From the NCBI GenBank assembly GCA_017849585.1, contig JAFIGT010000006.1, positions 1-45,673 of the forward strand: a stretch of DNA of 45,673 nt, given 5' to 3'. This stretch comes from Verrucomicrobium sp. Lineage in GTDB: Bacteria; Verrucomicrobiota; Verrucomicrobiia; Methylacidiphilales; UBA1321. Below are positions 32,084 to 36,307 of the stretch, piece after piece. The position numbers and the translations under genes are program-made. The notes below the pieces were generated by a model, which saw nothing but the letters and a program-made list of their open reading frames with translations, did not search any database and was not told the DNA's origin. The number at the start of each line of letters is the position of its first letter. Position 1 is the first letter of the stretch.

Positions 32084-33103
32084 TCAGCGTTTGGCCGGGG
32101 CCAGTTCGGGATGCAAACCGTAGGCGATGATTTCCGCGGCTTCCATGAGACGCGGTCCGGGAATGGTAAGCAGGTCGTCGGGCACGAGCACGAGACGATT
32201 ATTGGCGACGGCCTTGATTTTGCTCCAGCGGGGATCTACGCGCATGCGCTGCCATTCTTTCTGCAGGAAATCGCCATCGACCTTGCCCTTGCCAATGGCG
32301 ACGAGAATGACGTCGGGGTTGTTCTGGATGACGGTTTCCATGGCGAGTTGCGGCCACATGGTGGCGGCTTGCGCGGCGATGTTGTCGCCCCCGGCCAACT
32401 GGATGAGTTCATGCGGGAAGCTCCCCTTCCCGGCGCTGTAGAGTCCATTGATGCGGAGCAGGAGCAAGACCTTGGGACGAGGACCGGACGGCAGGGATTG
32501 TAATTGTTTCGTGAGCGCCTCGCCGCGCTGGCGCATGTCGGTCACGATTTTCTCCCCGCGCTCGCGCAGCCCCAGCAGGGTGGCCAGATCCACCGTGTCG
32601 CGATAGACGCTTTCAATCGAGGTATGCCGGAAATATGCCGCGTGGAGACTCAGGCGGTCAATCTGTCGCACCACTTCCTGCGGAGTCAGCCCCGACCCCA
32701 CGACAAGATCAGGATGCAGCCCGAGCATCTTCTCCATGTCGGGGTCCATGATGCCGCCAATCTTCGTCTTGGCGATGGCCTCGGGCGGATGAATGCAATA
32801 GGTGGTGTCGGCCACGATCCGGTCCCCAGCCCCGAGGGCGAAGATGAGCTCGGTCAGGCTCGGCGCAAGGCTGACGATGCGCTGGGGCGGGGCCGGCAGG
32901 ACGATCTCGCGATTGAAAGCGTCGCGGAAGTGGAGCGGAAAGCCGGTCGCGGTGGAAGTGGTGAGGGACGGGGCAGAAGGCGTCGCGGATGGGGCGATCT
33001 TGGGTTTCGCCTGGGCCATGAAACGGAACAGGCAGATGATGGCCAGGGCAAAAACCAATATCCCGATCAGAACGCCAAAGGAAGTGAGCACCGGTTTGCG
33101 CAT
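32084..33103 (-). CDS. FecB/BtuF-type substrate-binding protein, membrane-anchored
   Basis: The 339-residue protein opens with a single hydrophobic helix (about residues 9-28) without a lipobox Cys, so it is probably tethered by an uncleaved anchor or exported. A Ser/Thr/Pro linker follows. The binding-protein body starts at PQRIVSLAPSLTELIFALGAGDRIV, a typical BtuF/FecB opening, and ends with RLVLVPDDLLTIPGPRLMEAA. The ligand (siderophore, cobalamin, haem or metal) cannot be read. I found no cobalamin-riboswitch motif or Fur-like box in the 236 bases upstream. Confidence 0.9.
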   Translation of the reverse strand: MRKPVLTSFGVLIGILVFALAIICLFRFMAQAKPKIAPSATPSAPSLTTSTATGFPLHFRDAFNREIVLPAPPQRIVSLAPSLTELIFALGAGDRIVADTTYCIHPPEAIAKTKIGGIMDPDMEKMLGLHPDLVVGSGLTPQEVVRQIDRLSLHAAYFRHTSIESVYRDTVDLATLLGLRERGEKIVTDMRQRGEALTKQLQSLPSGPRPKVLLLLRINGLYSAGKGSFPHELIQLAGGDNIAAQAATMWPQLAMETVIQNNPDVILVAIGKGKVDGDFLQKEWQRMRVDPRWSKIKAVANNRLVLVPDDLLTIPGPRLMEAAEIIAYGLHPELAPAKR

Positions 33104-33288
33104 AAAACGTGTGAAGGTATAGCGTTAACGAAATTCCGACAGTAACGCAATGCTGCAAGTAATTGGCCCGTGACAGGTTGCGCCATTTTGACTCTTTTAC
33201 AGGAGGCATCGGGACAGAATTTTACGATTGCAATCGCCTGCTTTTTACGTAAACCGATGATTCCCAAAATATAAGATTTTTCCTGCAT

Positions 33289-33304
33289 TTGGCATTCTTT
33301 TTGC
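33289..33304 (+). promoter_or_regulatory. Sigma-54-type -24/-12 promoter
   Basis: TTGGCATTCTTTTTGC contains the GG (33291-33292) and GC (33303-33304) doublets exactly ten bases apart, as in the consensus TGGCAC-N5-TTGC. The predicted transcription start is near 33316, giving a leader of about 24 bases before the ATG at 33340. A possible sigma-70 -10 (TATCAT, 33306-33311) has no good -35. Confidence 0.5.
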
Positions 33305-33339
33305 CTATCATGGAAGTGAATCTGTAATAAAAGAAGACT

Positions 33340-33528
33340 ATGAGTGAGAATGCCTGCCCCTGCGGAAAAGACAGTAAAACATGCCCGGCCGTGTCCAAAG
33401 GCCAAAACGGCAAGGGGGATTCACCCCGTAACGTCAGCCTGAAATTCCGCAAGAATTACGATCACATCGCCTGGAGCTCCAAGACGAAGAAGTCCAAGCC
33501 GGGCGAGAAGTTCGTTAAAGTGTATTGA
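33340..33528 (+). CDS. Small cysteine-containing protein, 62 residues
   Basis: The product begins MSENACPCGKDSKTCPAV, with three cysteines in the first 15 residues. It continues as a Lys/Gly/Ser-rich polar chain ending KFVKVY. The Cys-x-Cys plus Cys pattern could bind zinc or a cluster, but three cysteines alone are not diagnostic and no family is recognised. It stands alone: the gene to the right converges on it and the promoter region to the left looks sigma-54-like. The coding call rests on that promoter, a plausible start and a composition unlike a random frame. Confidence 0.6.
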   Translation: MSENACPCGKDSKTCPAVSKGQNGKGDSPRNVSLKFRKNYDHIAWSSKTKKSKPGEKFVKVY

Positions 33529-33620
33529 TTCGGTCCCGAAGCGGGAAAGGGAATGGGAGACAATCCGCCGATTGAAACCGATTAGCCGCTGTTGTCGATC
33601 ATCGGTCTTTTCGAGCGGAC

Positions 33621-35126
33621 TCACCACGGCCTGAACTCTTTCCCGTTCTTCGGTTGCTGGTAGCGAATATCCACCAGCGTCAGCCCCGGCTGCAACGCCT
33701 TCGGTTGATGCGACGGCAGGAAAAGTTCCACCCGGCCCTCGCGAAAAAGTTGCCGGTAAAACTCCCGGCGACGTTCGAAATCGGCCTGCGCGAATTGCGC
33801 CACAGAGTCATCTAGAAACCGGTGATTCACATCGAATGAAACCAGCACGTGCGTCACGCCGTGACGCCGCAGTTCGTCCAGCGAACCCAAGTCCGCCACG
33901 AACCAGCTCGACAGAGAGCGCCCCGTCCGCGGCTCCACATCCACCCGCGCCCACTCATCCTGCGCGAGTACCAGAGTCCCGCGATAATGCTGCGCCAAAT
34001 GTTCCCGCACCACCGCGCGACTATCGAAACGAAACCCCCACGCCCGACGAGCCGCTTCGGGCTCCGCGCGCCACACCAGCCACGCCGCCACAATCACCGC
34101 CCCGGCTTGCGGCAACCACGTCAGCCACCGACGGGACCCACTCCTCGGCCACGGCAACGCGGCACCTGTCACCACCACGAAAGACATCAAATAGAAAATC
34201 GGTAATTCGTAACGGTCCGAGTACTTCGCCGTCCACGACAGCGCAATCAGCAGGATCACCGACGAACTCAACATCCACAAACTGCCCGGCGGCCGTCGCT
34301 CGCGCCCAGCCAGCACAAATCCCAGACATCCCAGCGCCAGTAACAGCCACGGAATCGATTGCCCCAGTTCGCGCCAGTACAGCGCATGCGGTATGGCATG
34401 GCCCGAGCCATAATCGCCCGCCAGCAGCAGCGTCACCTCCAGCGTCCCCGCCTCGCGCGCGACGTTCCAGTTCTGCAGCACGGGCCAGTAAATCCCCACC
34501 ACGAGCACGCCAAACAATCCCACAATCCACGCCAGCACGGTGCGACATTCGCGCCAACTCCACACCACGGCCTGTCCGCCCAGGAGCATCACCCAAAACC
34601 AACCGACGTACTTGCTCCCGGCCAGCAATGCCAGCGCCACGCCGAGCAGCACCGCACGGCGGCGGCCCGATTCCGCGCCGAAAAACGCCAGCGCCCAGAA
34701 CGACGCCGACAGTCCGAGCAGCAGCAGCGTATCTTCCTTGAAATAATGCCCGATCTCGTACAGATCCGGTTGCACCAGCAGCACCGCCCCCAGCGCCACA
34801 CCCGTGATCGTTCCTGCCCACACGACGGCCAGATCGACCAGCAGAGCGTTCGCCAGCGCGAGATAAAGAGCCGACAAGGTGCGCCCCACCTGCACGACTG
34901 CCTGCGGGTCGGCATTGCGTCCGGTCAATCGCGCCACGCCATCGGCGAGAGTCAGCATCAACGGCGGATGATTGAAATTGCGCCGCGCATCCGTCACCTG
35001 CGAGACCTTCGAGGACTCGTCGTTGTGGTAAAGCCACGAAAAATGATTATCGCGCGTGTAGAGTTGCAGCGACAGCGCCAGCACCACCGCGAACAGCAAC
35101 ACCCTCGGCAGACGACCTCCGTTCAC
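33621..35126 (-). CDS. GT39-like (PMT/ArnT-type) membrane glycosyltransferase
   Basis: The 501-residue protein has about ten hydrophobic segments. Near the N terminus is NHFSWLYHNDESSKV, an acidic Asp-Glu pair in the first outer loop as in dolichyl-phosphate mannosyltransferase-type enzymes. ARRNFNHPPLMLTL follows. A soluble C-terminal portion (about residues 345-501) has GTLVLAQDEWARVDVEP and later strands. The family moves a sugar from a lipid carrier; donor and acceptor are unknown. The start is taken as GTG 35126 because it shares GTGA with the upstream gene's stop. An ATG at 35165 would overlap that gene by 43 bases. Confidence 0.75.
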   Translation of the reverse strand: MNGGRLPRVLLFAVVLALSLQLYTRDNHFSWLYHNDESSKVSQVTDARRNFNHPPLMLTLADGVARLTGRNADPQAVVQVGRTLSALYLALANALLVDLAVVWAGTITGVALGAVLLVQPDLYEIGHYFKEDTLLLLGLSASFWALAFFGAESGRRRAVLLGVALALLAGSKYVGWFWVMLLGGQAVVWSWRECRTVLAWIVGLFGVLVVGIYWPVLQNWNVAREAGTLEVTLLLAGDYGSGHAIPHALYWRELGQSIPWLLLALGCLGFVLAGRERRPPGSLWMLSSSVILLIALSWTAKYSDRYELPIFYLMSFVVVTGAALPWPRSGSRRWLTWLPQAGAVIVAAWLVWRAEPEAARRAWGFRFDSRAVVREHLAQHYRGTLVLAQDEWARVDVEPRTGRSLSSWFVADLGSLDELRRHGVTHVLVSFDVNHRFLDDSVAQFAQADFERRREFYRQLFREGRVELFLPSHQPKALQPGLTLVDIRYQQPKNGKEFRPW

Positions 35127-36307
35127 GCACAGCCTCCCGCCGCTGCGCCAGACGCCCACGCCCATTGAAAATTAAACCCGCCGAGATGGCCCGTCACATC
35201 CACCACCTCGCCGACGAAAAAAAGTCCCGGCACGCGCTTCGCTTCCATCGTCTTCGACGACAGCTCGCCCGTGTCCACCCCGCCGAGCGTCACCTCCGCC
35301 TTCGAGTAACCCTCCGTGCCTGCCGGATAAATCTCCCAGCGATGCAATGTCTGCGCGATCTCGCGGAGTTTCTTGATCGCGAACTGATTGATCGGCTTCG
35401 ACGGACAATCCCGCGCACACCATGCCTGCACGAAACGCTTTGGCAAGCGCTGGCTCAATACATTCATCAACTCCGTGCGCTCCGGTTGCTTCGACACCAG
35501 CCACTCCTCGAGTTTTTCGTCTGGCGATAAATCAATCGTCAATGGCTGCCCCTCTTTCCAATACGACGAAATCTGCAGGATGGCCGGACCGCTCAGTCCG
35601 CGATGGGTGAATAAAATATTCTCGCGAAAACGACGTCCCGCGCACGACACCACCACGTCCATCGAAATGCCGCTCAGCTCGCCATACGCATTCACATCGC
35701 GCGGCGAAAAAGTCAACGGCACGAGACCCGGCCGCACCTCGGTCACATTCAGCCCGAAACTCTTCGCGATCCGGTAGCCGATGTCATTTGCCCCGAGTTT
35801 CGGGAATGAGAGTCCTCCTGTCGCCACCACGACCGACTCGCACGACATCGGTCCTTTGTCCGTCTGCACGATCAACCGCGCCGATCCCTCCCCCGCCGGA
35901 GCGGCTTCCACGCCGGTCACTTTGGTATTCACCAAAATCTCCACCCCGGCCTCGGCACAATCCTGCAGGAGCAACCCCGTGATCTGCCGCGAGCTTTCAT
36001 CGCAAAACAGCTGGCCAAGTTTCTTCTCGTGATAGGAAATCCCGTGTTGCTCCACCCAGTCGATGAACTGCTGCGGCTTGAAGCGCGCCAAGGCCGACTT
36101 GCAGAAATCGGGGTTACCGGAAAGGTAGTTATCCGGCGTTGCCAGATAGTTCGTGAAATTGCAGCGTCCGCCGCCCGAAATCAGGATTTTGTTCCCAACG
36201 CGGCCATTATGTTCCAGCACGAGTACGCGCCGTCCCCGGCGCGCCGCTGTCACGGCCGTCATCAACCCCGCCGCACCCGCGCCGATAATGATCACCTCGG
36301 AATTCAC
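35123..36307 (-). CDS. BaiN/HI0933-family flavoprotein (FAD/NAD(P)-dependent oxidoreductase)
   Basis: The 394-residue protein starts with a dinucleotide-binding motif VIIIGAGAAGLMTAV. It has the family stretch NGRVGNKILISGGGRCNFTN, FCDESSRQITGLLLQ, VVVATGGLSFPKLGA and a C-terminal FVGEVVDVTGHLGGFNFQWAWASG. The family binds FAD; one characterised group (BaiN) reduces bile-acid intermediates, but most members have unknown substrates. The start is GTG at 36307. On the minus strand TTTTCA-17-TATCAA lies nine bases upstream, so its message may have almost no leader. Confidence 0.9.
   Translation of the reverse strand: MNSEVIIIGAGAAGLMTAVTAARRGRRVLVLEHNGRVGNKILISGGGRCNFTNYLATPDNYLSGNPDFCKSALARFKPQQFIDWVEQHGISYHEKKLGQLFCDESSRQITGLLLQDCAEAGVEILVNTKVTGVEAAPAGEGSARLIVQTDKGPMSCESVVVATGGLSFPKLGANDIGYRIAKSFGLNVTEVRPGLVPLTFSPRDVNAYGELSGISMDVVVSCAGRRFRENILFTHRGLSGPAILQISSYWKEGQPLTIDLSPDEKLEEWLVSKQPERTELMNVLSQRLPKRFVQAWCARDCPSKPINQFAIKKLREIAQTLHRWEIYPAGTEGYSKAEVTLGGVDTGELSSKTMEAKRVPGLFFVGEVVDVTGHLGGFNFQWAWASGAAAGGCA

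Follow-up and report, generated by a model that had tools for sequence, protein, structure and literature searches.

A predicted sigma-54 promoter and candidate enhancer at a small cysteine-containing protein gene of Verrucomicrobium sp., with counterparts at chaperone genes

The window analysed here, 45,673 nucleotides of contig JAFIGT010000006.1 from Verrucomicrobium sp., carries a gene for a 62-residue protein that most likely belongs to a chaperone regulon under sigma-54 and an enhancer-binding protein (EBP), as judged from the conservation of its promoter site and from an upstream palindrome that it has in common with hsp20 and dnaK. Both predicted sites are present, are conserved and are shared with hsp20. 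In the explanation that we favor, and that we consider probable as a whole, sigma-54 RNA polymerase would transcribe the gene from a -24/-12 element at 33,289-33,304, and an NtrC-type EBP bound to the palindrome at 33,179-33,195 would activate it, as part of a chaperone regulon for protein damage; in this order of Verrucomicrobiota, hsp20 and probably also dnaK would be preceded by a promoter of that type and by that activator site. The activator would be a response regulator (C37:84192 of the window's own genome, G000) with its PAS histidine kinase, the signal would be heat or protein damage, and the 62-residue protein would help the Hsp20/DnaK system.

The small gene and its predicted promoter element

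The element, TTGGCATTCTTTTTGC, lies on the plus strand at 33,289-33,304, and its doublets (GG at 33,291-33,292 and GC at 33,303-33,304) are exactly ten bases apart, as an earlier sequence-only reading of this DNA had it; it fits the pattern TGGCAY-N5-WTGC. At sigma-54 promoters transcription begins about 12 nt past the -12 GC, which places the predicted start at 33,316 on the plus strand, and the ATG at 33,340 does lie the claimed 24 nt beyond it. The open reading frame (33,340-33,528, plus strand) encodes 62 residues with the three N-terminal cysteines described earlier (Cys 6, 8 and 15, in CPCG and TCP), followed by an NGKGDxPRN module recognized in family alignments. It is a real gene, to judge by homologues in 17 of the 60 genomes searched, its own included, and by 12 invariant columns in their alignment. 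Its neighbors, both identified by Pfam, are a divergent gene for a Peripla_BP_2 periplasmic binding protein (32,084-33,103), with which it has a common intergenic region, and on the other side a gene for a PMT_2 protein (33,621-35,165); both are on the minus strand, so that the small gene is alone on its strand here. No sigma-54-like site facing the Peripla_BP_2 gene was found in the shared intergenic region, and a simple consensus scan of the plus strand found no sigma-70-like site in 33,060-33,660.

The doublets by themselves are weak proof, since the looser pattern TGGC-N7-TTGC occurs nine times in the window versus 2.25 expected. Throughout the 4.79 Mb genome TGGCAYN5TTGC is found at 41 places, versus 24 for the reversed control, and the majority of the 30 places examined lie within long reading frames. 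Sites of this type do precede rpoN and some other genes of the genome, which suggests that the genome makes use of canonical sigma-54 promoters; from sequence, we take the products of those other genes to be AmtB, FlgB, a cyclopropane-fatty-acid synthase and a DUF4388 protein.

Five of the 17 genomes have the strict pattern TGGCAYN5WTGC no more than 150 nt from the start codon (shuffles: mean 0.012, maximum 1). Of these, G000, G001 and G002 belong to the window's genus and G017 and G036 to other families, and because this strict site is conserved across orthologues we regard it as more than chance. A looser pattern is seen upstream of the gene in six of 17 (shuffles: mean 1.12, maximum 6), a result that is not convincing alone. 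In six further genomes (G012, G015, G016, G020, G025 and G039) the gene follows hsp20 at a distance of 87-110 nt, with a sigma-54-type site ahead of hsp20 in all six, while G003, G013, G018, G021, G023 and G026 have neither a site of their own nor the hsp20 link. The expectation that orthologous loci would keep the -24/-12 doublets is thus borne out directly in five genomes (own genome counted) and by way of the hsp20 operon in six; because the last six have neither, sigma-54 control of the gene would not be universal among its orthologues. The spacers between hsp20 and the small gene are hairpin-rich in all six cases (L006, L008, L012, L013, L014 and L016), at -33.7 to -47.5 kcal/mol by figures that carry no shuffle control; the hairpin predicted in each is strong and may determine how much of one product is made relative to the other. 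Beyond the 17, locus L089 from the Verrucomicrobiae has the gene at 2457-2654 behind an Hsp20-like reading frame (1968-2384), with the sigma-54-type sequence TTGGCTCTTAATTTGC 48 nt upstream of the latter, and locus L088 has a palindrome scoring 14.4 and a loose GGCATGGTGCTAGC at -63. At nine loci of relatives from outside the order, the 150 nt before the gene had no site and palindrome scores did not exceed 5.1.

A palindrome at the small gene, chaperone genes and two CBASS genes

A 17-bp palindromic matrix, which reads AGNGTCATNATGACNCT, was learned from 16 of 17 hsp20 upstream regions, that of G002 being omitted as a near-duplicate. Its highest-scoring match in the window is TGCGCCATTTTGACTCT at 33,179-33,195, with a score of 21.4; the next reach 15.5 and 14.9. 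In all five genomes where the small gene has its own promoter site, the palindrome starts 111-123 nt upstream of the -24 GG, with scores of 21.4 in G000, 18.6 in G002, 21.3 in G017, 17.8 in G036 and 4.4 in G001; none of 1000 shuffles reached the score in the first four, and 47 did in G001. Directly upstream of the gene, no score above 7.1 was seen in the 12 genomes that lack a site of their own, and the G001 palindrome is weaker than the one in G016 (7.1), which is among those 12. Sigma-54 enhancers lie some 80-200 nt upstream. The palindrome at 33,179-33,195 is a conserved candidate for such a site, which we infer to be where the EBP binds, with ZraR as at most a possible model for it.

Strict promoter sites were found in ten of 20 hsp20 upstream regions (shuffles: 0.008, maximum 1) and loose ones in 18 of 20 (shuffles: 0.93, maximum 5, for a pattern chosen after a first look at those sequences), one of the latter, in G038, looking spurious. 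These 20 come from 31 hsp20 loci; seven second genes or repeats of one operon were omitted, as were the extra copies L116, L130 and L137 and the gene of L127, whose start was not located and which, as L224, has both a palindrome and a sigma-54-type site. Family f9 (G019, G024 and G038) stands apart: 17 of the 18 loose sites fall outside it, two of its three genomes lack the hsp20 site and the third has the spurious-looking one, and the 62-residue gene was not found in any of the three. G004, G008 and G009 have sigma-54-type hsp20 promoters yet no 62-residue gene. The distance from palindrome to -24 GG at hsp20 is 58-144 nt in 16 of 17 upstream regions and 217 nt in G015.

All 20 canonical dnaK upstream regions have GG-N9-TGC within 90 nt (shuffles: 1.3, maximum 5) and 14 have a palindrome scoring at least 13 (100 shuffles: 0.04, maximum 1), with both pattern and cut-off set after a first look; the dnaK palindrome of the window's own genome, at 12.9, is just below that cut-off. 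In 14 of the 20 cases no more than 27-33 nt separate the dnaK site from the ATG, and the resulting messages would be near-leaderless; the dnaK sites are the weaker part of the case. The 20 were drawn from 27 loci by omitting seven paralogues; G002 and G017 gave no match and G001 only a paralogue. Both elements are also found at a gene of G003 that we take, from its N-terminus, to be clpB-like. The predicted activator site and promoter type of the small gene are in this way common to chaperone genes, with dnaK weaker in the own genome, and the link to stress that had been supposed for a sigma-54 gene gains support from the upstream site at hsp20 and dnaK.

A regular expression for the palindrome matches 13 distinct places in the own genome, versus six for a reversed control, and four of the 13 score at least 20: those at hsp20, the 62-residue gene, a CBASS cyclase and a CBASS HNH-SAVED effector. 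Across 21 genomes a stricter form occurs 58 times, versus 14 for its control; 21 of these precede hsp20, dnaK, clpB or the 62-residue gene, 12 are one repeated sequence and 25 are unexplained. In G003 the palindrome occurs at 12 sites for which no target is evident. The identical sequence AGAGACATTTTGTCTCT recurs 12 times in G013 and G021, several times near contig ends, and from these recurrences it may be part of a repeated or mobile element.

The CBASS palindromes lie 172 nt before the ATG at 2354 of the cyclase locus (L201, G000:C3:98500-106000) and 156 nt before the ATG at 2333 of the effector locus (L202, G000:C4:108000-116000). GG-N9-TGC occurs just once in 320 nt at either gene (-46 and -35, respectively), and sigma-54/EBP control of anti-phage CBASS defense is possible. 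A bolder and quite tentative idea is that one NtrC-type two-component system of this order senses protein damage, caused by heat or phage, and via sigma-54 induces Hsp20, DnaK, the NGKGD protein and, in the window's genome, the two CBASS systems; if true, it would put chaperone and immune responses on one enhancer.

Sigma-54 machinery and a candidate activator

Both rpoN and at least one EBP, which the sequence-only reading had named as a check on its proposal, are present in the genome: there is one rpoN match (E 1.2e-58) and there are 18 matches to Sigma54_activat, 12 of which, at E 7.6e-64 or better, are strong EBPs. The sequence TGGCATGATTATTGC lies 56 nt upstream of the rpoN start (L001, 434-490), and autoregulation of rpoN through it is possible; a 2025 survey predicts rpoN autoregulation in classes including Verrucomicrobiia (PMC12316311).

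For the activator, 37 of the 42 EBP matches in eight further genomes were compared with the 12 of G000. Two EBPs at E<=1e-30 are encoded in G020 (92% complete), and one of them, here called group B, and G000 C37:84192 are each other's best match. Among the EBPs compared, group B is a reciprocal best match in eight of the eight further genomes and so is present in all nine. Its Pfam layout is a receiver, an AAA+ domain and a Fis-type helix-turn-helix, and its gene adjoins that of a PAS histidine kinase. The recognition helix contains RRTL in G000 and in six of the eight, and RKTL in the two from f9, where the dnaK palindromes have the form TGGG...CCCA; but GGG also occurs in one palindrome arm in G008 and G020. 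In G016 a palindrome with the same sequence as the G013/G021 repeat lies near the 5' end of the kinase-regulator pair. The response regulator at C37:84192 is the best EBP candidate, offered as a lead. Another EBP, group A (C12:110096), is less likely, in that its best match in G002 is non-reciprocal (nine of ten EBPs of this 89% complete genome having been compared) and its C-termini differ in several genomes.

The protein, alternative readings and related systems

The statement that the protein has no recognized family holds for Pfam, NCBIfam and PHROGs, where it has no match at E<=1, and for the PDB, where no relative was found, so that these searches speak against a known family; it does not hold more broadly, in that the protein fits a definable wider family, defined in this analysis by the NGKGD module. 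An HSP20 domain (PF00011) was not found in it by Pfam at E<=1. The 17 homologues have in common C6, N23-G24-K25-G26, P29-R30-N31, F36, N39 and W45, and N23, G24, K25, G26, P29, R30 and W45 are kept in 35 of 35 aligned rows, which were chosen for carrying the module. A sample of the whole phylum gave homologues in 12 of 387 genomes, the own genome included, the weakest being doubtful and two lying in long frames. Named relatives come from Verrucomicrobia bacterium Tous-C9LFEB, Candidatus Methylacidiphilaceae bacterium UBA1321 and Pelagicoccus species, and those of Pelagicoccus lack the cysteine pattern. AlphaFold2 models, of low confidence (mean pLDDT 57.1 with 17 rows and 66.9 with 35), show a single short helix at 34-41/42. 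From its genomic company, we would guess that this basic peptide with N-terminal cysteines aids the Hsp20/DnaK system as a proteostasis helper.

Collections of phage and plasmid records, each queried with one relative rather than with the window protein, gave no match. Among IMG/VR viral contigs, 61 loci (L261-L321) have a relative, with the NGKGD module read in 56, several of them near-copies; eight were scanned and matched no PHROG. The viral small proteins carry the same module as the window protein, and some have Cys-rich N-termini; unlike it, they have N-termini that are short, Lys-rich or fused to other sequence. In L298 the module is fused to what we presume to be a dihydrofolate-reductase-like sequence.

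Three other readings have been weighed against the proposed chaperone regulon. That the doublets arose by chance and the gene uses a housekeeping promoter would agree with the eight other TGGC-N7-TTGC matches in the window, the weak looser-pattern test and the six orthologues with neither element nor hsp20 link; it is disfavored by conservation of the strict site in five of 17 genomes versus 0.012 in shuffles, and the palindrome common with hsp20 and the missing plus-strand sigma-70-like site also speak against it, so that we find it very improbable. The gene might instead be sigma-54 dependent while the palindrome is the operator of some other regulator, a repressor or a sigma-70-type stress activator, with the EBP bound elsewhere. 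Many of the loci examined do have a palindrome with no sigma-54-like site downstream, and dnaK upstream regions have palindromes where the promoter element is less canonical. The spacings at the small gene and at 16 of 17 hsp20 genes, however, suit an enhancer and are far for a repressor; moreover, palindrome and promoter site coincide, the former being present in all five genomes with the latter (weakly in G001) and above 7.1 in none of the 12 without. We consider this operator reading unlikely.

The third reading concerns the protein, which might be phage-derived or phage-directed, acting in counter-stress or defense under host stress control and not as a chaperone helper. The viral relatives and the palindromes at the two CBASS genes are in its favor, whereas the position of the gene behind hsp20 in six of 17 genomes of the order, and the neighbors at 12 viral loci, which were varied and by eye showed no common pathway, weigh against it; it appears doubtful, if somewhat less so than a palindrome serving another regulator.

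Bacterial chaperones are usually described as being under sigma-32 or under repressors such as HrcA. One known chaperone system, with sigma-66 and HrcA, belongs to bacteria that we take to be of the same superphylum as the window's genome. Like the arrangement proposed here it brings sigma-54 and a sensor kinase/activator pair to a chaperone operon; it differs in that sigma-66 and HrcA also act and that heat lowers rpoN, and the portion of its description available to us names no hsp20 or NGKGD protein. In the survey text available to us, sigma-54 promoters are predicted at GroEL/GroES, IbpA, GrpE, DnaJ and DnaK, with enrichment in Planctomycetota and Bacteroidota; those regulons resemble the present one in promoter type, and that text names no Verrucomicrobiota chaperones, no common enhancer and no NGKGD protein (PMC12316311). 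The ibpB gene of E. coli, also a small heat-shock gene with a reported sigma-54 promoter, is cited as sigma-54 dependent in one account (PMC4370416), but ChIP gave a sigma-54 signal only at background and the site is called misannotated in another (PMC4591121). In Geobacter, chaperone genes are reported to change with RpoN, but a search for RpoN elements at these genes gave none (PMC2725144). A search by titles and abstract openings found no paper that describes a chaperone or CBASS regulon under sigma-54 in this order. As far as that search reaches, the kind of regulon is known, and the order-wide common enhancer, candidate activator, NGKGD protein and CBASS link are new.

In most of the order, sigma-54 and one recognizable enhancer appear to govern chaperone genes, and the finding points to a candidate sensor pair and a new small protein in the response. 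It offers sites and an activator that can be tested, and a possible link between protein damage and anti-phage CBASS defense. The promoter type and upstream site common to the 62-residue gene and the chaperone genes suggest that part of the protein-damage response in these bacteria may be run through sigma-54.
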